DNA from: a virus
DNA length: 21,573 bases
Strand: one strand, 5' to 3'
IMG/VR virus record: IMGVR_UViG_3300034112_001434
Location: 1 to 21,573 of that record
The number at the start of each line of letters is the position of its first letter. Position 1 is the stretch's first letter. This document shows, in pieces, positions 3,948 through 21,484 of this stretch. The notes beneath the pieces are model-generated. The model saw nothing but the letters and a program-made list of their open reading frames with translations. It was not told the origin of the DNA and did not search any database. The position numbers and the translations under genes were made by a program.

Positions 3948-4218
3948 CTTCGTCCTGCTTTTGATGCCATGCTCGATGATTCTGCAGGTCTTCCTCGACC
4001 CTCCCGACCGAATCAGAGAGATAACGTAGGCTTTCGGCTACCTCATCGACGAGCTCGACGAGACGCTTCTGACCACCCTGCCGGTGATTGACCGCATTGT
4101 TCACCTGCTCGATCGGCAGCTCCAGCCTTTTGGCTCGCAACCATGCAGCAGCAGCCATAAGTGTAGGGGGGACCGCACCAATGAGCGCAATCAGTATCTG
4201 TGTTAGGTATTCACTCAT
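3925..4218 (-). CDS. Small membrane protein with coiled coil, DUF2746-like, holin candidate
   Basis: A 97-residue product with one clear N-terminal membrane helix (about residues 6 to 27, ILIALIGAVPPTLMAAAAWL), then a basic stop-transfer RAKR. A helical coiled-coil region follows (RLVELVDEVAESLRYLSDSV) and a charged tail. The layout and the VNNAVNHRQ segment resemble DUF2746 proteins encoded near lysis genes of mycobacteriophages. The gene shares ATGA with the tail hub gene and lies upstream of the endolysin, which fits a holin or holin partner that lets the signal-less endolysin reach the wall. A single membrane segment is unusual for classical class I or II holins, so the holin role is inference. 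Confidence 0.75.
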   Translation of the reverse strand: MSEYLTQILIALIGAVPPTLMAAAAWLRAKRLELPIEQVNNAVNHRQGGQKRLVELVDEVAESLRYLSDSVGRVEEDLQNHRAWHQKQDEDETSQDS

Positions 4219-6737
4219 GTTAGCGTCACTCCAAAAACGTAGCTGTCGCCGGTAGCTAAACCAATGCTCGAAATTCCGCCGTATGTAAAATAGAGGACAT
4301 TTGATGCAACCTCTACGGGGTGTCCGGGTGAGGTATCGTAGATGTTGATGCTGTCATCCAAATAGTCATAGACATACTGCGTTGTGACGAGGTTATTCGT
4401 TGCCAAAGATACTCGATTGGTTCCCGAGATTGGTCTTACGCAAGAGATCGCATGTATGCCGCTCGACGTGACAGTGTATCCCCACGGTCGGACCAAGTCA
4501 GTGCTCGACCACTCCACACCAGTCAGATAGCTTGTGGTGACTCCAGTAGTGTAGTCAAAGAAGTTGATTGCCGCCTCATCGGGTGTCGATGTCGTGAATC
4601 GTGTAAGGTAGTAGAAACCATTGGCTGTTGGGACACCGAGACCGCGAGTGTTGTCTGTTGCTGAGGGAGGGGTTGGGACGATGTAGTCACCAGTGATGTG
4701 GTCCCAGTCGAAGTTGTTTGTATCGTTGCTGTTCTTGACGTGGAATCGGAAGCCTGTAGTTTCTGCATCATTATGCTGCATGACCAGCTTACCGGCATGA
4801 GCTATCATTCTTAGGTTGGTGTCTACTGTGGCAACAGTGAGCCCGGTGCCAAGAGTGCCTCTTGCGACTGGTGCTGCGTCGTTTGCTGTGAAGCTCCAAA
4901 ACGGACCGCCTGCTGGAGCTGTTGCTCCTGCGGTGTAAATCCACACCCATCCATTTGTGTAGTCAGTTGTGACCTTATCGATACCAGCACCCGAAAAGTC
5001 ATGTGTAGTCCAAGCACCCGTGCCGGGGTCTCTTGCATAGATCGCGGTGGAGGTAAATGTGAGTAGCCTTCCATCGGAAAAAACAAAATAGTCCGAGTTG
5101 GCCCCACCAGGTGGCACCGAAATAGCAGAGCTTGTTAGAGTGTTCCTGCTGTAAGCACGGATTTCATTTCCGTAGCTTCCACCACCTACAACGACCGGAC
5201 CAGCTCCAAGAATCAAATCCGCGCCGAGCCCCATGTAGTTGTTGTAGTCTGTCGATAGCCTGCCTGTTTCTCGGAAAGTGTTCATCGAGTTTGGCAAATC
5301 GGCAGTGTTGAGTGGAAAAGCAGGATTGAGGCTGCCTACCGGCTGCTGCACCGGCGTGACAGCCCCAGCTCGCTGCGTGATGCCAATTGCTGCGTAAACG
5401 TCCGGAGTCGCTGGATCATTGTCGGTCAGGGTTATCAGAACAATCTCGTCGCCAATGGCAAGATACCCTCCCGTGCCATTGATGAAGCTGATAGGGTCGT
5501 CGTCAATAGTCGGTGCGTCAGCTGTGCCCTCGCCGGTCGCGGGATCGTAGGTCAGCACCTCAGCTCCGTATGTTAGTGCCCCTTCCTCCGCACCTACTGC
5601 CGCATAGTCTGAAGCTGAAGCTGCGCTGCTGGCCTCGCCACCGGCTGTCTTGGCTTCCTGACGCTGGATTAGCCTGCGAAGCCTCTCCTCAAGTTGAGCC
5701 CTGACTGTTCCGAGCTCAGGAACGACTCGAATGTTCTCGCCCTGGACTGAGATGGTCAATGCCCTGACCCGGTATGTGTAGCGATCCCCAAATCGATCAG
5801 TGACGTAGACGTAGTCACCGACATTGTAGTGCAGGTATGGCTCGTAGCCCTCAGGCAGAACCTCTGCAGTCATGGAATCAGCCGGTGTCTCAAGAGTAGG
5901 CATCGTGCGATCTGTAATGTTCTGAGCTGTGACCTGAGAATCGACATTGTTGAGGCTGAGAAAGGTTTCGCGCCGTCCGTATGTGCCAGTAGTCGTGCCC
6001 ACCGTTTCAACGAATTGACCATTGCCGTATTCAGTGTAAATGACGTTCCGCACCGGCCCATTGACCTCGCGAGTCACATTGACTGCATTTTGAGCTATTC
6101 GGAGAACCACCGGATTGGTTTGTGTTGTGGTGTCCACACCTCGTTCGACTGCATACTGGAGCACCAGGTCAGCGTCTACCCACACATCGACAGCTGCATC
6201 CGCGTGACGTGATGCGACCTCGGCAAGGGTGGCCCCAACACGCTCCTCAATTGTGATCTCCTGATCGGGCCCCCATGCGACGCTGTTGCTGTCCGTGGTA
6301 TCGTCAAAGCCCAAGCTCATTTCTATCAGAGCACCTCTTGCCTGAGCCTCGTCAAAAAGCTCTTCCATAATCGCGCCGACGTATTGGTCGGTGTAGAGTC
6401 GGCTGGTTCCAGCTCCACTCTTGTAGATTAGCGCATTCTCAAGTAGGCTGCGAGCACCACGCCCGCTTACCTGCAGCACTATGCGTTCGTCGGTCTGCAC
6501 CCTGACGATTTTCTCAATGACCCCAGTCCACACATAATCGTCAGCCCGATCTCCATAAGAGAATTTGACCAGCTTACCGATGTCGCCTTCGCTTATCGCG
6601 TTGAGATCGACAAATTCAAATGTAAAGCTGCCTTCACCTTTGAGCTCGTCGGTCCATGTAATGTTCACTGCGTTGCTCAGTGGATAATTGCGGGTGCCGT
6701 TGCGGTTGTAGAGTGTTGCGCTGACGAAGCTGGTCAT
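4215..6737 (-). CDS. Tail hub / minor tail protein with C-terminal beta-propeller-like region
   Basis: The product is 840 residues from ATG 6737, which shares ATGA with the distal tail gene. An earlier ATG at 6833 would overlap that gene by 100 bases and adds a low-quality N-terminus. Residues 1 to about 370 resemble the siphovirus ReqiPepy6 Gp37-like tail hub: beta-rich with VWTGVIEKIVRVQTDERIVL and a GRGARSLLENA motif. An Ala/Glu-rich linker with a short helix (ERLRRLIQRQEAKTAGG) leads to a small beta domain. About 330 C-terminal residues then form repeated beta strands (FVFSDGRLLTFTSTAIYARD, WVWIYTAGA, GFYYLTRFT, GIHAISCV), like propeller blades. The N-terminal part should build the tail tip under the distal tail ring. 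The C-terminal part is a candidate receptor-binding domain. Fold assignment is by pattern, not search. Confidence 0.85.
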   Translation of the reverse strand: MTSFVSATLYNRNGTRNYPLSNAVNITWTDELKGEGSFTFEFVDLNAISEGDIGKLVKFSYGDRADDYVWTGVIEKIVRVQTDERIVLQVSGRGARSLLENALIYKSGAGTSRLYTDQYVGAIMEELFDEAQARGALIEMSLGFDDTTDSNSVAWGPDQEITIEERVGATLAEVASRHADAAVDVWVDADLVLQYAVERGVDTTTQTNPVVLRIAQNAVNVTREVNGPVRNVIYTEYGNGQFVETVGTTTGTYGRRETFLSLNNVDSQVTAQNITDRTMPTLETPADSMTAEVLPEGYEPYLHYNVGDYVYVTDRFGDRYTYRVRALTISVQGENIRVVPELGTVRAQLEERLRRLIQRQEAKTAGGEASSAASASDYAAVGAEEGALTYGAEVLTYDPATGEGTADAPTIDDDPISFINGTGGYLAIGDEIVLITLTDNDPATPDVYAAIGITQRAGAVTPVQQPVGSLNPAFPLNTADLPNSMNTFRETGRLSTDYNNYMGLGADLILGAGPVVVGGGSYGNEIRAYSRNTLTSSAISVPPGGANSDYFVFSDGRLLTFTSTAIYARDPGTGAWTTHDFSGAGIDKVTTDYTNGWVWIYTAGATAPAGGPFWSFTANDAAPVARGTLGTGLTVATVDTNLRMIAHAGKLVMQHNDAETTGFRFHVKNSNDTNNFDWDHITGDYIVPTPPSATDNTRGLGVPTANGFYYLTRFTTSTPDEAAINFFDYTTGVTTSYLTGVEWSSTDLVRPWGYTVTSSGIHAISCVRPISGTNRVSLATNNLVTTQYVYDYLDDSINIYDTSPGHPVEVASNVLYFTYGGISSIGLATGDSYVFGVTLT

Positions 6738-7567
6738 AGGAAGATCGCCCTGTATTGGATTGTCATGAGCTGCGTCGCGGCCCCGTCTCGCGTCACCGTC
6801 CAAGTGTTGGTGCCCGGCATCAACGGCATCCATAGGTTCGTGCCGGTCGTGACTACATTGCCACTGACATTGGTAGCCCCATCAAGAGCTGTGAATCCGC
6901 CGGTGAAAATTTGCAAGCCGGTTGTGACGGGTAAGTCATACTCCAAACCGAATCCTGTGGTGGCCGAGTAGATGCTGATGCTGTTAGCTGCTCCGGGAAT
7001 GTTGATTGTAGAATTGACCACCTCAGCACTGCCGAGAACATTGAAGCTGAAGGTTTCGCTGTTGTCCACGTATTGGTTGATGGTGGTATTGGTGCTTGAG
7101 ATCAGAATACCGGATGGGATTGTGATAGTCAGCACGGCTCTTGCTGTGGTCGGGTTGATGTAGTCGAGGCTTAGCTCAGGTGAGATGTGCACCTGGGTGA
7201 AAACATTGCCGCCCGGTCGATACCACGTCAGCGTTCTCGTAGGTGTGCCGATTTGAATAGTGCGTCGATGTGGCCTGATGGCTGTCTTTAGCTCATTGAT
7301 GTTTGTCAGCAGACCTTCTCTTGGGTTCGCATGGACTGCTCCGGTGCTGCTCTTGTCACCGAAAATGACGATAGGTATGTTTACGGTGCGTGAGTCTGTG
7401 GTCCGTTGCCGAGGCAGAGCACCGCGCAGTTGTGGGACGACGTAGTCCTCGCCACGGACTCCGGGCCCATCGTTGAGCTCCGAGAGATCGAGAGTCTCCC
7501 ATGCCGGTGTGCTGAGAGGAAGGCTATCAATTGTCAGATACTCTGACCTTGTGACTATGTAGCTCAT
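6734..7567 (-). CDS. Distal tail (Dit-like) protein
   Basis: A 277-residue beta-rich product sharing four bases with the tape measure gene before it and ATGA with the hub gene after it, the usual tape measure / Dit / hub order. The N-terminal 140 residues fit the belt domain of siphovirus distal tail proteins (an early ETLDLSELNDGPGVRGEDYV, then RTVNIPIVIFGD, then a LTWYRPGG turn). The C-terminal part is a Thr/Asn-rich beta domain (TFSFNVLGSAEVVNSTINIP), probably a galectin-like or carbohydrate-binding module. It should form the ring joining the tail tube to the tip. The assignment rests on gene order plus fold pattern. Confidence 0.82.
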   Translation of the reverse strand: MSYIVTRSEYLTIDSLPLSTPAWETLDLSELNDGPGVRGEDYVVPQLRGALPRQRTTDSRTVNIPIVIFGDKSSTGAVHANPREGLLTNINELKTAIRPHRRTIQIGTPTRTLTWYRPGGNVFTQVHISPELSLDYINPTTARAVLTITIPSGILISSTNTTINQYVDNSETFSFNVLGSAEVVNSTINIPGAANSISIYSATTGFGLEYDLPVTTGLQIFTGGFTALDGATNVSGNVVTTGTNLWMPLMPGTNTWTVTRDGAATQLMTIQYRAIFL

Positions 7568-16052: not shown

Positions 16053-18020
16053 TTATCCTACGAAGTCTACCATGCATTGGCAGTTAGCTCGCTCGTCGTC
16101 ATCCAGGTCAGGATCGCCCGGCCAACGAGCTCCATTGCTGAAGGTGTCGCTGATTGCGACTGTCTCGCCATTCAGAGCTGCGTGCGACCCGCGAGGGTTG
16201 CCGCTGGTCACAATCCATGTCTTAGTTCCACGGTTGTTGGCTTGTGCTGACTCGATTCGTCCAAAGTTCGCCATCGCAGTGGCCAGTGTAAATGAAGAGC
16301 CGACCGTGTCAGCGTCTCCCATCTCTTCAAACATCTCACGAGCTATGTCTACCGGCGAATCCTCGTCTCCAAGATCGGCGAACCGACGAGACAGCCGGTC
16401 TTGAGTGGCCTTGTTGATACGCTTTGCCGCGCCATCAGCTACAGCTGCGAGATAGTTTCGAGCATTATCTACATCCCACTCACCTACTATTTTTGCTGAG
16501 CGACTGGTGACTCTTGTTAGCGCAGGTAGAAGGTCAGCAGCCAGCTCCTTATCGAACCTGGCGCGGTCGTAAACGCGACGTGCGTCAGCTTTGACCTCTG
16601 CGGATTTGGCAGCTCCAAGTCTTGAAGCAACAGATCGACTCTGCCTCTCGAGATTGTCCTTGAGCACCTGAGCAATTGAGTCCGCTCCCGATTGACGAAT
16701 CTCCAAGAAAGTCTGTCTGCTGATTGCTTGCTTCTCGCCATCAGGTAGTGATGCTGCTTTAGCCTCTACGTTATCAGCAGAAAGTGTTCCGAGGGTTCGC
16801 TCATCGCTTACGGTATCTTGTGGTGATGCGAGACCGCCTACGAGCACATTGAGCGGAGTCACGAGATCGTCTCCGCCGTCGATTGCCGGTAGGTTGAGAC
16901 GAGCACGTGCCTCATTCCTTGTGAGGTAAGGTGCTCCTACGGAAGCTTGCAGAACACCGGCTTGCTCCTCGAATGACCCGCGCAGCTTTTCTTGCAGCTG
17001 GAATTCGAGATAGGCATTTGGCTCGTTGAATTCGGGTAGAAGCTGAGCTTCAAGTTCCTCGCTTATGATTGTTAGCCAGGGAGCTAAGCAGTCAGTGTAG
17101 AGCTGGCGATGTTGTTCAGTCAGGCTTGAGTAGTTCGCATTTCCGAGACCCAGCAGACCGGCAGGCACTCCGTAGGCAGCAGCAACGATTTCCCGAGCAA
17201 GTTGATTACTCTCAAGATACTGCGCGTCTCTCGGTGAGAATGTCTGTAGTGGCTTGGCAATCATGCCCTCTTCGAGGACTGCAGTCTTACCTGAATTCTT
17301 TGCGCCGGTAAAGCTGGCATCCCAGTCCGCACGGAATCTCGCACGAGCTGTGTCACTCCATTGAGGGGCACCGATCGGACGTTCAATGACCAGTGAAGCT
17401 CTCGCACCCTGTCTCCACAGACCTTCACGATGTTCGGCAGCAGCTTGCTGCTCAGCAAGTAGCTGACGTAAAGTTTCAAGCGGCGACAGACCCTTTCGCA
17501 GGTCTTTTGGATTGTAGCCATGAATGTGAATAACCTGATCCCGAGTGTAGTCGATTGTCCCGTTGGTTCCCTTGATGCGGTATCCTTCCGGACGTAGCCA
17601 ATTGTCTCCAAGAGCTTGCACCATGTTTGGTGGCACTCTGACGAGAGCAATGCGATCTCCGCTCCGAACCTTGACTCGGATAGCTTCGTCATAGATGCAG
17701 AGGTCTTTTACGAGACCTTCCATCCAGCGCGAACGAGTAGTGTAGATGTCGGGTTGTTCAAGAGTTTGTGTCAGCGATGTGCCGGTAATGCGCGAACGGC
17801 TATTGTCGCCATCTCGTCGATAGGCATGCAGAGGAATCTGCGAAATGTTCCGTGCCAAGAAATCGACCACAGAGCGGACCTCGTGCTGCGCCTTGTAGAG
17901 GTCAGCGTAGTCAATACCACGACCATCGAAAAGACTAATCTGCCCGCTGAGATCGGGTCGGTTCAGGAGATTGTTCGCCTGGACACTGACGAGACCGTCT
18001 GCGTTCTCGACGATTGCCAT
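16053..18020 (-). CDS. Portal protein fused to C-terminal MuF-like domain
   Basis: A 655-residue product with AGGAG seven bases before ATG 18020. Residues 1 to about 400 are an HK97-type portal: EVRSVVDFLARNISQIPLHA, VIHIHGYNPKDLRKGLSPLE, the QAAAEHREGLWRQGARASLV helix, and LAREIVAAAYGVPAGLLGLG followed by YTDCLAPWLTIISEELEAQL. HK97-type portals are commonly about 400 residues, so the remaining 250 are additional. After a helical connector, the last 60 residues carry TSGNPRGSHAALNGETV, DTFSNG, WPGDPDL and a NCQC pair (Cys648, Cys650), the pattern of Mu gpF-like minor head proteins. The portal forms the DNA entry ring; MuF proteins are internal head components. In many phages these are separate genes. 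Neighbours are LSm-like and protease genes. Confidence 0.94.
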   Translation of the reverse strand: MAIVENADGLVSVQANNLLNRPDLSGQISLFDGRGIDYADLYKAQHEVRSVVDFLARNISQIPLHAYRRDGDNSRSRITGTSLTQTLEQPDIYTTRSRWMEGLVKDLCIYDEAIRVKVRSGDRIALVRVPPNMVQALGDNWLRPEGYRIKGTNGTIDYTRDQVIHIHGYNPKDLRKGLSPLETLRQLLAEQQAAAEHREGLWRQGARASLVIERPIGAPQWSDTARARFRADWDASFTGAKNSGKTAVLEEGMIAKPLQTFSPRDAQYLESNQLAREIVAAAYGVPAGLLGLGNANYSSLTEQHRQLYTDCLAPWLTIISEELEAQLLPEFNEPNAYLEFQLQEKLRGSFEEQAGVLQASVGAPYLTRNEARARLNLPAIDGGDDLVTPLNVLVGGLASPQDTVSDERTLGTLSADNVEAKAASLPDGEKQAISRQTFLEIRQSGADSIAQVLKDNLERQSRSVASRLGAAKSAEVKADARRVYDRARFDKELAADLLPALTRVTSRSAKIVGEWDVDNARNYLAAVADGAAKRINKATQDRLSRRFADLGDEDSPVDIAREMFEEMGDADTVGSSFTLATAMANFGRIESAQANNRGTKTWIVTSGNPRGSHAALNGETVAISDTFSNGARWPGDPDLDDDERANCQCMVDFVG

Positions 18021-18029
18021 GTCTTACTC

Positions 18030-18245
18030 CTATTCCGTGACCTGAATAAAGTCTATGTTCTCTCGCTCGATGAGCACCTCGCCAGCTACGTCCACCGGCT
18101 CAGAGCCCGGCTCAAGCAGCGAAGCACCCTTGAGAAGCACTATGCTTCCCGATACCTCTATGAGATACCCACGGAAAGCTCTGCCAGTCTTTAGATTGAC
18201 GAGAACCTTCCGTGAGTATGCGAGCCTCTTGTATGGATTAGGCAC
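18030..18245 (-). CDS. Small LSm-like protein
   Basis: A 71-residue product from GTG 18245, with AAGGA six bases upstream. The sequence VLVNLKTGRAFRGYLIEVSG, followed by IVLLKGASLL and then GEVLIERENIDFIQV, matches the two-part Sm motif. Sm1 is a V-x-L-K-x-G-R strand set ending in a hydrophobic LLxxA strand, and Sm2 is G-x-V-L-I-x-x-x-x-I. Hfq and archaeal Sm proteins use this fold to form rings that bind RNA. Comparable small genes stand beside the portal in many actinophages, but I know of no defined role. RNA binding and ring formation are inference from the fold pattern. A structural head role is equally possible given the neighbours. Confidence 0.8.
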   Translation of the reverse strand: MPNPYKRLAYSRKVLVNLKTGRAFRGYLIEVSGSIVLLKGASLLEPGSEPVDVAGEVLIERENIDFIQVTE

Positions 18246-18254
18246 TGTCGTTCC

Positions 18255-19163
18255 TTAGCTTATCGCGCTGACGTGTAGTCCGATCCGATACGCAGCGGGA
18301 ACCGAGCCGATTTGGTTTTGGATGTTGTTCGGCAGTGTGTCCGTTTCGTAGTTGAAAGTTGCTGGATTGATGCTGCCATTGTAGTAGCCACCAGCCCAAA
18401 AACCATACGGCCCACTGGAGAAGTTTGCCGGGTTGATTCCGTTATTCCAAAACGGGTTGTGCTGCGTCTGCGCCAGCGTCAGGAATTGCGGTCCGTCTGC
18501 ATTGTCGTGTGTGCCGGTGTTTACCGGATTGACTGCCATACCTACGAAGTAGACTGTTCCAGCTGTTAGATTCACTGTCGATCCGAGAGTAATCTCCCGC
18601 ACCTCGCTGGAGAAACCACCCACGTCATCACTCGATTTGACCAGGGTGTAGCCCAAGTCTTTCACGAGTCCGTGCGGACGACCGGTGTTTCCTTGATCAT
18701 AGATGAAACCACGAACATGCATACCTGTATTGCCAGCGGCTGTCGTTCCGTTGCCGTTGTATGCGAATGCCCATTTGGAGATGGTCACATTGGTGTTGAA
18801 ACGGATAGCTGCGAGCATAGCTTGCGGGAATGCGTTCGTTGTATTCTGCGTTCCGTCGCCGATTGGGAAGTAGTAGCGGCTGGTCCCGATTGGTGCGATT
18901 GCTGGCCATGCTGTTCGAGGATCGCCGTCTTCCCAGCTCGTCCCGTTGAAGATTAGTGCGCTGTCGCGTATTGCCCCAGCCGTTGCTACATCTTCGAGGT
19001 CATTGAGGTCGATGTGGCCAGCGGGTGCTGGTCCGTTCACCCATTCGGTGCCGTCGTATTGCAGAACGTCATCGGTTGATGCGTCTGTGATGTTTACATC
19101 GGTCAGACCGTCAAGGTCACCGGCACCGGCTCCACCGGGTGCATAGAAGCTGCTATCAGGCAT
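18255..19163 (-). CDS. Fibre-like structural protein, possible head fibre or decoration
   Basis: A 302-residue product between terminase and portal. Two repeats near the N-terminus have the pattern L-x-D/G-L-x-D-V-x(8-9)-D-x-L-x-x-x-G-T-x-W-x-x-G: LDGLTDVNITDASTDDVLQY then DGTEWVNG, and LNDLEDVATAGAIRDSALIF then NGTSWEDG. Such repeats occur in phage tail and head fibres. The following 200 residues are beta-rich and full of Gly, Asn and Thr (STVNLTAGTVYFVGMAVNPV, PYGFWAGGYYNGSINP), consistent with a jelly-roll or adhesin-like tip. The position in the packaging module, rather than among the tail genes, favours a capsid-attached fibre, but this is inference. It could also be a tail fibre encoded out of place. 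Confidence 0.75.
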   Translation of the reverse strand: MPDSSFYAPGGAGAGDLDGLTDVNITDASTDDVLQYDGTEWVNGPAPAGHIDLNDLEDVATAGAIRDSALIFNGTSWEDGDPRTAWPAIAPIGTSRYYFPIGDGTQNTTNAFPQAMLAAIRFNTNVTISKWAFAYNGNGTTAAGNTGMHVRGFIYDQGNTGRPHGLVKDLGYTLVKSSDDVGGFSSEVREITLGSTVNLTAGTVYFVGMAVNPVNTGTHDNADGPQFLTLAQTQHNPFWNNGINPANFSSGPYGFWAGGYYNGSINPATFNYETDTLPNNIQNQIGSVPAAYRIGLHVSAIS

Positions 19164-19165
19164 GA

Positions 19166-19447
19166 TTACCCCACCTTCAGGATTCGAACGTCTTGGCCGG
19201 CAGAGCTTGCGATTGCGTAAACGACTGACCCGAGCCGGAGATCGAGTGTTCGTGCCCCACCCGCAGGGATGGGAGAGCCATTTGAGGTTGTGACGGAGCT
19301 ATTTCCGCCGATGTAGATCGTCACCGATCCGTTGTTCAAAATTTCGTATGTGACGCGACCGTCTTTATTGCCAGCTGCATAGTCATCGCCGGTGATGATT
19401 GCTGTGGCTGCGGTTCCTACAGTCACTGCTGATGCTGTGATACTCAC
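19166..19447 (-). CDS. Small beta-rich protein, possible capsid decoration partner
   Basis: A 93-residue product from a GTG start sharing GTGA with the terminase stop. It looks like one beta-sandwich domain: ITASAVTVGTAATAIITGDD, RVTYEILNNGSVTIYIGG, SSVTTSNGSPIPAGGARTLD and VVYAIASSAGQDVRILKVG. The pattern 'NxGSxxxYxGG ... VTTxxGxPxxAG' recurs in small structural proteins of many phages and may bind the head or a fibre. It is two bases upstream of the fibre-like gene, so the two proteins probably act together. The function is not established. Confidence 0.68.
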   Translation of the reverse strand: MSITASAVTVGTAATAIITGDDYAAGNKDGRVTYEILNNGSVTIYIGGNSSVTTSNGSPIPAGGARTLDLRLGSVVYAIASSAGQDVRILKVG

Positions 19448-21057
19448 AGTAGCTCGACCCCCCGATCCTCGTAGACGCTCTTGCCGGTAAACGCTGAGCC
19501 CGTGAGCATGGCCGAATTCAGCGACATGGCCAGCGCGACGATTCCGTCGATACGAGCCACAGACCGAGCCTTGTCCACCTTGATGTTTCCAGCCGGGTCC
19601 ATGTTTACGAGTGCGCTGTCGGCGTGCGCTCGCAACACCGGGTGTGCTCCGTGCCTTAGCGTCTTGGAGAGGATGAGTGCCTCAAGCCTTTTGGTCGGAG
19701 CTGACATGGTTGCAAATCCCTGCCGTGTTGGAGCGACTCGCATTCCAAGCTCCTGGAGATCGGTTATCAGAGACGTAGCGTTCCACGGGTCATAGGCAAG
19801 CTCTAAAATCGGGTGCTTGTCAGCGATGTCAATGATAGCTTGCTTGATCCATTTGTAGTCCACGACGTTGCCCGGAGTCAGGGTGATGTGACCTTGATCG
19901 GCCCATGTTCCGTATGGCAGCCGGTCTCTTTTCTCACGCTCTCGAAGGTCAGCCCCTGGTATCCAAAAATGCGGTATCGCGGTGTATCCGCCATCTTCTT
20001 CAGGGAAGAGCTGCACGAGAGCACTGATGTCTGTGGTGCTCGAAAGATCGAGCCCGATGTAGCAAGGTCTTCCCTCATACTCCTTCTTGTCGATAGGTGT
20101 CTCGCCGCACGCATCCCAAGCTCGCATGTCAATCCAACGACTGACCTCCCTGGTCCAACGATTGAGATACAGCTGAGCAAAGGTAGTCTGACGAGCTGGC
20201 GATACTTTAGCCTTCTGCACTTCGCTCTCAAGGAAGTCCGGCATTACAGTAATTCCAAGAGACGGATTCGCCTTTGCCCATGTTTTAGGATTGTCCCAGT
20301 CGTCAGCGTCCTCAGCTGCGTAGATGACAGTGAGGAAGCTGTCGTCGCGGTGTGTTCCGTTTGCTACGTTCACAGCATACTCGTGCTGCTCCCATGCGAT
20401 GTGGTTCGGATCGTAGACACCGGCGGTAGTAATTCCAATAACGATTGGCTGGCGACGTGCTCCTACCGAGGAGCTGAGAACATCCCACAGCTCGCGACTC
20501 TTATGTGCGTGCACCTCATCGAGAACACAGAGGCTTGCCCCGAGCCCGTGTTGCCCCAGCGCGTCACCTGAGATTGTGCGGAGAACAGAGCCAGTCTTAG
20601 GCACCTCAATGTATGATCTAACAGCACGACACCGGCCACGTAGCTTTGGAGATGCCTGCACCATCTTTCGCGCCAGCTCGAAACATAGTCTTGCCTGAGC
20701 TCGATCACGAGCACCCATGTAAACCTGAGCTCCGGGTTCATTGTCGGCCAACAGACCATAGAGAGCGAGACCGGCGCACATGGTAGTCTTAGCTGCCTTG
20801 CGGGGAACCTCCACCCACACAGTGCGATACAGTCGAGTGCCGTCAGCTCGCTTGTATCCGAACAGCGGTCTAATGACCTCGTATTCCATCCACGGCATCA
20901 ACGGCCACGGTTCACCGGCACCTTTACCTTCCACCAGGTGTAGCAGCTCGAAGAAACGCACAGCTCGATCTGCCGCCTGCTCGTCGTAGTAGGCTCCATC
21001 GGGAAGGTATTTGCCAGCCGACGTATGGAGAGGCTTAGTCCAAGAGATCGCTGTCAT
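19444..21057 (-). CDS. terL: Terminase large subunit
   Basis: The product has 537 residues from ATG 21057, which has GGAG nine bases upstream. ATG 21072, five codons earlier, lacks a ribosome site but cannot be excluded. The ATPase half has a Walker A-like VPRKAAKTT (about residue 85) and Walker B LCVLDEVHAH (about 156 to 165), with a GITTAG coupling motif after it. The C-terminal nuclease half shows IGLDLSSTTDISALV, LELAYDPWNATSLI and RIDGIVALAMSLNSA, supplying the acidic metal ligands. It cuts concatemeric DNA and drives it into the prohead through the portal. The family is Terminase_1. It overlaps the small-subunit gene by 23 bases, and its own stop overlaps the next gene's start. Confidence 0.97.
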   Translation of the reverse strand: MTAISWTKPLHTSAGKYLPDGAYYDEQAADRAVRFFELLHLVEGKGAGEPWPLMPWMEYEVIRPLFGYKRADGTRLYRTVWVEVPRKAAKTTMCAGLALYGLLADNEPGAQVYMGARDRAQARLCFELARKMVQASPKLRGRCRAVRSYIEVPKTGSVLRTISGDALGQHGLGASLCVLDEVHAHKSRELWDVLSSSVGARRQPIVIGITTAGVYDPNHIAWEQHEYAVNVANGTHRDDSFLTVIYAAEDADDWDNPKTWAKANPSLGITVMPDFLESEVQKAKVSPARQTTFAQLYLNRWTREVSRWIDMRAWDACGETPIDKKEYEGRPCYIGLDLSSTTDISALVQLFPEEDGGYTAIPHFWIPGADLREREKRDRLPYGTWADQGHITLTPGNVVDYKWIKQAIIDIADKHPILELAYDPWNATSLITDLQELGMRVAPTRQGFATMSAPTKRLEALILSKTLRHGAHPVLRAHADSALVNMDPAGNIKVDKARSVARIDGIVALAMSLNSAMLTGSAFTGKSVYEDRGVELL

Positions 21058-21484
21058 CAGACGATTCTCCATCCGCTTTCAATCGCGTGCGTGCCGACGG
21101 GGTCAAGCCCAATTCGCCGGCGAGCTGGCGAATCAGCATCGCGGAGTCACGCTGCACTCTTACAGCTGGATTGCTTACCATGCCGTCACGCCGGCCTTCG
21201 ACCAGCACGCCTTCTCGATCCACAATCTCGGTCGAGCGTTGGTAGTTCACGACTGCGTTAGCATAAGCAGCCAAGATGTCTTGGTCGGCTTCGAAGAGTA
21301 GTCCCATCAGCTTCAGTTGCTTGGCGGTGCGTCGCCACACAGCCTTTGCATCTTTGCTGAGCCACGTCGGACAGCGCGGCTCGCTCTTGGCTGGCTTCGG
21401 TTCCTTTTGATTGATACGGTCAGCACGCACTCCGCGAACGACGCGCAGGTGCGTTGGTGTTGGTGCCGGTCCCGGTCTTGCCAT
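21035..21484 (-). CDS. terS: Terminase small subunit, P27 family
   Basis: A 149-residue product with a strong TAGGAGGAG ribosome site before ATG 21484. The N-terminus MARPGPAPTPTHLRVVRGVR followed by EPKPAKSEPRCPTWLSKDAK matches the P27 family opening (GRPPxPTxLxxLxG ... EPxP ... PxWLxxxAxxxWxR). It continues with LKLMGLLFEADQDILAAYAN and a C-terminal helix (SAMLIRQLAGELGLTPSART) before an acidic tail. It recognises the phage packaging site and delivers it to the large subunit, whose gene overlaps its 3' end. Length is normal for the family. Confidence 0.94.
   Translation of the reverse strand: MARPGPAPTPTHLRVVRGVRADRINQKEPKPAKSEPRCPTWLSKDAKAVWRRTAKQLKLMGLLFEADQDILAAYANAVVNYQRSTEIVDREGVLVEGRRDGMVSNPAVRVQRDSAMLIRQLAGELGLTPSARTRLKADGESSDDSDLLD

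Follow-up and report, generated by a model that had tools for sequence, protein, structure and literature searches.

In RcGTA, a jelly-roll base pentamer (Rcc01079) is described as holding a 325-amino-acid (aa) fibre (Rcc01080) through fibre residues 2-10, and the fibres attach the particles to capsule (PMC7296036). In HFTV1, a base hexamer (TBP, gp30) is reported to carry a trimeric head (THP, gp31) with a galactose-binding-like domain, for which a reversible hold on host glycans has been proposed (PMC12494034, PMC9973310). Other capsid-borne fibres include gp8.5 of phi29, thought to aid adsorption (PMC9863714, PMC7602432), and the vertex fibres of phage 7-7-1, described as touching flagella (PMC12796354). 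Decoration proteins of actinophage capsids are known as well (PMC7150772), so that the wording of our preliminary description, which called head fibres "poorly described" in actinophages, is fair, whereas "undescribed" would not be.

We analyse here a virus record of 21,573 bases (IMGVR_UViG_3300034112_001434), hereafter the window. In it two open reading frames (ORFs), for proteins of 93 and 302 aa, lie on the minus strand between the genes for the large terminase subunit (TerL) and the portal. The preliminary description had placed both ORFs correctly (19166..19447 and 18255..19163, respectively), but it missed a 71-aa Sm/LSM-like gene (18030..18245, minus strand; phrog_6750, 1.2e-18) between the 302-aa gene and the portal gene. 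Read along the minus strand, the order is the small terminase subunit (21484-21035), TerL as the upstream flank of the pair (19444..21072; PF20441, 1.2e-44), the 93-aa and 302-aa genes, the Sm-like gene, a portal with a MuF-like end as the downstream flank (16053..18020; PF04860, 1.4e-77), the protease (16049-14502) and the capsid gene (14498-13305), with connector genes, recognised by phrog connector matches, downstream of the capsid gene. The GTG start of the 93-aa gene lies within a 4-nt overlap with the TerL stop, and the 302-aa gene begins 2 nt past the 93-aa stop with an ATG preceded by a purine-rich ribosome site. The overlap and the 2-nt gap together indicate that the pair belongs to the packaging operon. 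As had been claimed, the pair is distant from the tail genes, which follow the tape measure gene (9816-7564, minus strand) and include an 872-aa presumed tail-tip protein (4215-6833) that gave no Pfam match at E 1 and no PDB sequence match at E 0.1.

The same site can be compared across annotated cultured actinophages. In 10/10 of those inspected (Lton, Maja and phiT45-1 from the capsid search; Aoka, LittleTokyo, Reyja, Galaxy, Raymond7, OneDirection and Cupello out of the 136 records matched by Sm), a single small gene and nothing else lies between terminase and portal; in nine of them this gene is Sm-like, either as annotated or through a match, and in phiT45-1 it is hypothetical. Many of the cultured-phage records that match the window's Sm-like gene annotate it as an RNA binding protein. 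At the Sm-like "RNA binding protein" site of Lton, Maja and others the order is TerL-small gene-portal-protease-capsid, as in the window but without the two extra genes. Among the phages compared, the pair is therefore an addition specific to this lineage, bounded on one side by the usual actinophage occupant of the site.

The term actinophage, used in the preliminary description, stands in part. All 136 phage records matching the Sm-like protein (136/136) are phages of Mycobacterium, Arthrobacter, Gordonia or Nocardia, and the best 20 of 970 capsid matches are phages of Arthrobacter, Mycobacterium and Gordonia, the 970 including other hosts. The best TerL matches among those listed (41-43%), however, are phages of Firmicutes-type hosts, and scans of genome contigs for prophage relatives with portal and TerL alignments gave 61 and 73 pattern matches, none of them confirmed, the short patterns being ones that could miss distant prophages. 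The host of the window phage is probably an actinobacterium.

When compared by tblastn with 50,697 phage records, the 302-aa and 93-aa proteins had no match at E 0.01, and the 93-aa protein had none even at E 10; among the papers listed by the literature searches, none described a base-fibre pair located between terminase and portal. The pair recurs in IMG/VR contigs, where the order TerL-base-fibre-Sm holds in 13/13 distinct readable intervals (the window, L006, L007, L008, L026, L027, L028, L029, L031, L033, L034, L046 and L054). Portal comes next after Sm in the 12 intervals that reach so far, L008 ending before a readable portal ORF, and the 4-nt overlap of the base gene with the TerL stop is present in all 13. 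Identity to the window's copy is 46-75% for the 93-aa protein (12 relatives) and 23-51% for the 302-aa protein (13 relatives). These counts leave out near-identical copies, duplicate contigs and end-cut fragments (L002-L005, L009, L014-L016, L024, L025, L030, L032, L035-L040, L042-L045, L047-L052 and L055). One contig, L053, is cut before the 93-aa gene and was counted for the fibre only, and L010, L017-L023 and L041 are unrelated phages in which the common feature is only a repeat or a distant base. Judged by sequence, the 93-aa and 302-aa ORFs are real genes, kept as a coupled pair in other contigs.

We propose that the pair forms a two-part spike, most likely on a siphovirus head, with a conserved base and an exchangeable adhesin, and we put the probability of this reading at about 60%. 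Like the RcGTA head spike, the locus encodes two proteins, a jelly-roll base (predicted here) and a fibre of about 300 aa (302 here, 325 in RcGTA). In the window lineage the base and fibre genes are adjacent and the fibre has a conserved N-terminal peptide, which may serve as an anchor to the base. The anchor peptides differ in sequence, however, and the pentamer and the capsule binding are features of RcGTA, whereas here the comparison is of genes and predicted folds. The HFTV1 turret is likewise built of a base and a head protein, and the model of the 93-aa protein matches a turret chain; the turret differs in that its head protein adds a deacetylase-like domain and in its archaeal host.

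The 93-residue beta domain announced in the preliminary description is well supported by prediction, since the AF2 model is an all-beta jelly roll of 8 strands with a mean pLDDT of 89.2. The model is confident, and its fold occurs in capsid spikes as well as in many proteins unrelated to them. For example, the spike P1 of PM2 matches at Z 9.5 (rmsd 2.2, 82 aligned), and Foldseek matches include a PR772 chain and the HFTV1 turret chain 8qpg_TD (E 0.024). The endospore appendage Ena, however, matches at Z 9.0 and is followed by many cupins at Z of about 7-8, and such similar scores weigh against taking the jelly roll as a mark of a head spike. In BFVD, 97 matches were found at E <= 0.001, and among the 50 listed most are small uncharacterised phage proteins. 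By sequence, phrog_30212, annotated as of unknown function, was matched by 12/12 members of alignment A10 (best E 9.3e-11). The best PDB sequence match of the 93-aa profile (12 members) is 9t9r_A, "Penton base (GP14)", at a marginal E of 0.033 (domain E 0.17), which is suggestive but short of proof.

Several individual proteins were compared with the base. Kinship with tectivirus-type penton bases was probed through WheeHeim, since a 198-aa protein of this phage is a structural match in BFVD; gp33, equated with that match by length alone, gave an hhalign E of 0.0034 at a low probability of 9.5 against the 93-aa profile, compared with 0.58 for a control protein that WheeHeim also encodes. In this tail-less Streptomyces phage (L059, 14574-16760), the gene for the 198-aa protein, which may be structurally matched to the base, lies one gene ahead of that for a 416-aa protein with a C-terminal match to the tail-protein family phrog_38009 (4.8e-14). 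An Ig-like decoration identity was rejected for the 93-aa protein, Big_2 scoring 0.038, below its cut-off. Two proteins of Pseudomonas phage tf were also set aside as relatives of the base, namely the 87-aa "head fiber protein" tf_50, which does not match the base profile and instead matches phrog_6994, and tf_61, which has no sequence match to the base profile and is encoded near the tail spike. The latter was taken, by length and the look of its sequence, to be perhaps the structural match I2FLT0, and if it has the same fold its location counts against a fixed head role for that fold.

The 302-aa protein would comprise an anchor peptide, two repeats and a C-terminal beta-sandwich. The putative anchor, MPDSSFYAPGGAGA, spans residues 1-14 (19122..19163, minus strand), and across 14 fibre alleles D3 and S4 are invariant (14/14) and S5, F6, P9 and G10 reach at least 90%. 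The two fibre-type repeats of the preliminary description are well founded, as residues 16-44 (19032..19118, minus strand) and 52-80 (18924..19010, minus strand) align as two copies with a local score of 58, which 0/2000 shuffles reach (best shuffle 48). With the patterns used for the anchor and the repeats, all six reading frames of the window gave matches in the 302-aa gene only. By eye on the alignment, two repeats are present in the window and L006-L008, one in L026-L029, L031, L033, L046 and L054, and none recognisable in L034 and L053, whose fibres retain the DSS start but hardly anything more of the N-terminal region. The Gly/Asn-rich C-terminus also bore scrutiny, since G+N make up 25.5% of residues 201-302, compared with 9.6% of TerL, 12.1% of the portal and 12.7% of the Sm-like protein.

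The repeat is a general fibre motif and does not discriminate between head and tail. The family phrog_9729, labelled tail fibre, matches it weakly (3e-05) and was found in 5/14 fibre members, and the same repeat type occurs in a tail-collar-like protein of L017. No Pfam identity, including the head-fibre domain, was obtained for the fibre among its 14 members. The gp8.5 family of phi29 presumably has such a Pfam head-fibre domain. The phi29 head fibre is a helical coiled coil, whereas the 302-aa protein is predicted to be beta and has no head-fibre Pfam match.

The model of the 302-aa protein is less certain than that of the base. Its mean pLDDT is 65.6, with residues 1-20 and 48-70 under 50; the N-terminal third is poor and the C-terminal domain fair and beta-rich. 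The best solved match of this variable C-domain (about residues 90-302; 18258..18896, minus strand) is 9jwb_Z, from the capsid asymmetric unit of cyanophage A4 (Z 13.1, rmsd 3.2, 158 aligned), which corresponds to ORF25 of Anabaena phage A-4L (E 5.5e-133). The next solved matches are mycobacteriophage proteins, the Bxb1 tail tip at Z 10.2 and the Douge central fibre at Z 10.1. ORF25 resembles the fibre C-domain in its beta-sandwich but differs in being a 202-aa protein encoded beside tail-fibre genes, between a tail-fibre gene and a tail gene, and sequence profiles gave no link between it and the fibre (E 0.22). The short ORFs between terminase and portal of A-4L are, by eye, unlike the 93-aa protein and were rejected as counterparts of the base.

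These matches bear on whether the 302-aa protein might instead be a baseplate receptor-binding protein encoded out of place, with the 93-aa protein as its adaptor or chaperone. The likeness of the sandwich to the Bxb1 and Douge tail-tip proteins, the tail-fibre label of phrog_9729 together with the repeat in the L017 protein, and the position of ORF25 beside a tail fibre all speak for such a tail-tip adhesin. The window nevertheless carries tail genes of its own past the tape measure, the 872-aa protein among them; the pair stays in the packaging operon, between TerL and the Sm-like gene, in 13/13 intervals; and the best structural match is a capsid chain. We consider a tail-tip role unlikely. 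That same capsid chain, and the placement of the connector genes downstream of the capsid gene and not beside the pair, likewise argue against a neck or collar fibre, in which the pair would form whiskers at the head-tail joint. Such whiskers would suit flexible repeats with a distal sandwich, and the pair does lie near the portal gene in an operon that holds head and neck genes together, yet we regard this arrangement as quite improbable. The capsid-bound fibre of the preliminary description keeps part of its case, namely its constant place in the head and packaging operon (13/13), the closeness of the C-domain to a capsid chain and the base-plus-fibre plan of known spikes. The argument from location carries little weight by itself, since the sandwich is found on heads and in tail tips, the repeat in tail fibres and ORF25 beside a tail fibre, so that gene position is no proof of where the protein sits in the virion.

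The preliminary description had pointed to the C-terminus of the fibre as a place where rapid divergence should be sought, and such divergence was found. Median pairwise identity is 79.3 for TerL, 69.5 for the portal, 60.9 for the base, 50.7 for Sm and 40.6 for the fibre, the lowest of the genes compared, and the C-domains are 27-55% identical to that of the window. When the four genes TerL, base, fibre and Sm are compared pair by pair, conservation is lowest in the fibre in 47/78 pairs; in the other 31, therefore, another gene varies equally or more. A shell decoration or cement protein, stabilising the capsid and without an adhesive role, would not be expected to have so variable a C-domain, nor a shaft of zero to two repeats. 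Although ORF25 of A-4L was deposited within a capsid asymmetric unit and decoration proteins are described as often stabilising shells (PMC7602432), we hold a purely stabilising role to be very unlikely.

The siblings L028 and L029 illustrate how this divergence may arise. Their nucleotide identity is 97.6% upstream, 95.7 in TerL, 97.5 in the base, about 99.5 in Sm, 93.3 in the portal and 97.0% downstream, whereas the fibre gene falls to 74.0%, with 100% over its first 30 nt and 72.9% over nearly all the remainder. Synonymous divergence (dS) is 0.99 in the fibre as compared to 0.20 in TerL, 0.10 in the base, 0 in Sm and 0.31 in the portal, indicating that an older allele was imported and that amino-acid selection alone does not account for the difference. 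The C-domain of the L029 fibre is 82% identical to that of L033 and 75% to that of L028, while its TerL, base and Sm are nearest L028. Similarly, the window's C-domain is nearest L046 (55%), and its TerL, base and Sm are nearest L007, L026 and L033. On this comparative evidence, the C-terminal part of the fibre is modular and mosaic, and the drop in the L028/L029 fibre amid conserved neighbours marks allele exchange. The other non-identical near pair, L006 and L007, has diverged evenly (TerL 88%, fibre 89%), so that one clear exchange, that of L028/L029, is documented.

For the head spike that we favour, we infer that both proteins are present in the virion and located on the head, that base and fibre bind one another in some defined oligomeric state and stoichiometry, and that the target is a glycan. 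The working plan would be that of the RcGTA head spikes or HFTV1 turrets, with a base, an anchor peptide, a short shaft and an exchangeable sandwich. The conserved 93-aa jelly roll would bind the shell, where it would probably form a ring at the vertices or in the middle of capsomers, and the conserved N-terminal peptide of the 302-aa protein would plug into this ring. The protein would then project through its short repeats and end in the beta-sandwich, which may contact surface glycans reversibly, ahead of tail engagement. Recombination in the conserved flanks would swap the adhesin among related phages and so retune first contact while leaving the tail untouched, and, with the start of the fibre gene and its neighbours conserved, each incoming allele would still fit the base. 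Should the pair sit on the head, these phages would carry two separately evolving attachment devices, the head one being an allele-swapping cassette bounded by conserved genes, and the locus would offer a handle on a seldom testable question, namely whether head fibres set host choice or just improve encounter. In a more far-reaching version, which we advance tentatively and consider doubtful as a whole, an uncultured actinophage lineage would have a host-range determinant on the head too. A jelly-roll base at the capsid vertices, with a fold akin to that of spike and penton proteins from viruses lacking tails, would there display an exchangeable fibre that binds glycans; this fibre would be encoded as a recombination cassette within the packaging operon, so that first contact evolves apart from the tail tip. 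Base and fibre, two protein families without annotation, are also named by this analysis and can be searched for in soil and freshwater phage genomes.

A few further observations concern neighbouring genes and unrelated phages. The unrelated phage contig L041 (667-2175) encodes a 153-aa protein distantly related to the 93-aa protein (37% over the C-terminal part of the former), a 65-aa ORF and then a 286-aa protein whose fibre-like repeat is of a different kind, and may be a case of base and fibre travelling together elsewhere; the 153-aa relative had no tblastn match at 0.01 in cultured phage records. In L010 (4458-5706), a contig that looks podovirus-like by eye, a 165-aa protein with two fibre repeats of the same type lies two genes from an all-beta-looking 114-aa protein. 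Just ahead of the packaging operon, L006 (34-2215), L007 (34-2209) and L008 (71-2115) each have a ParB/DNA-methyltransferase-like gene, named by eye from the translation, which is followed by a PAPS-reductase-like gene (also by eye) in L006 and L007 and by another gene in L008.
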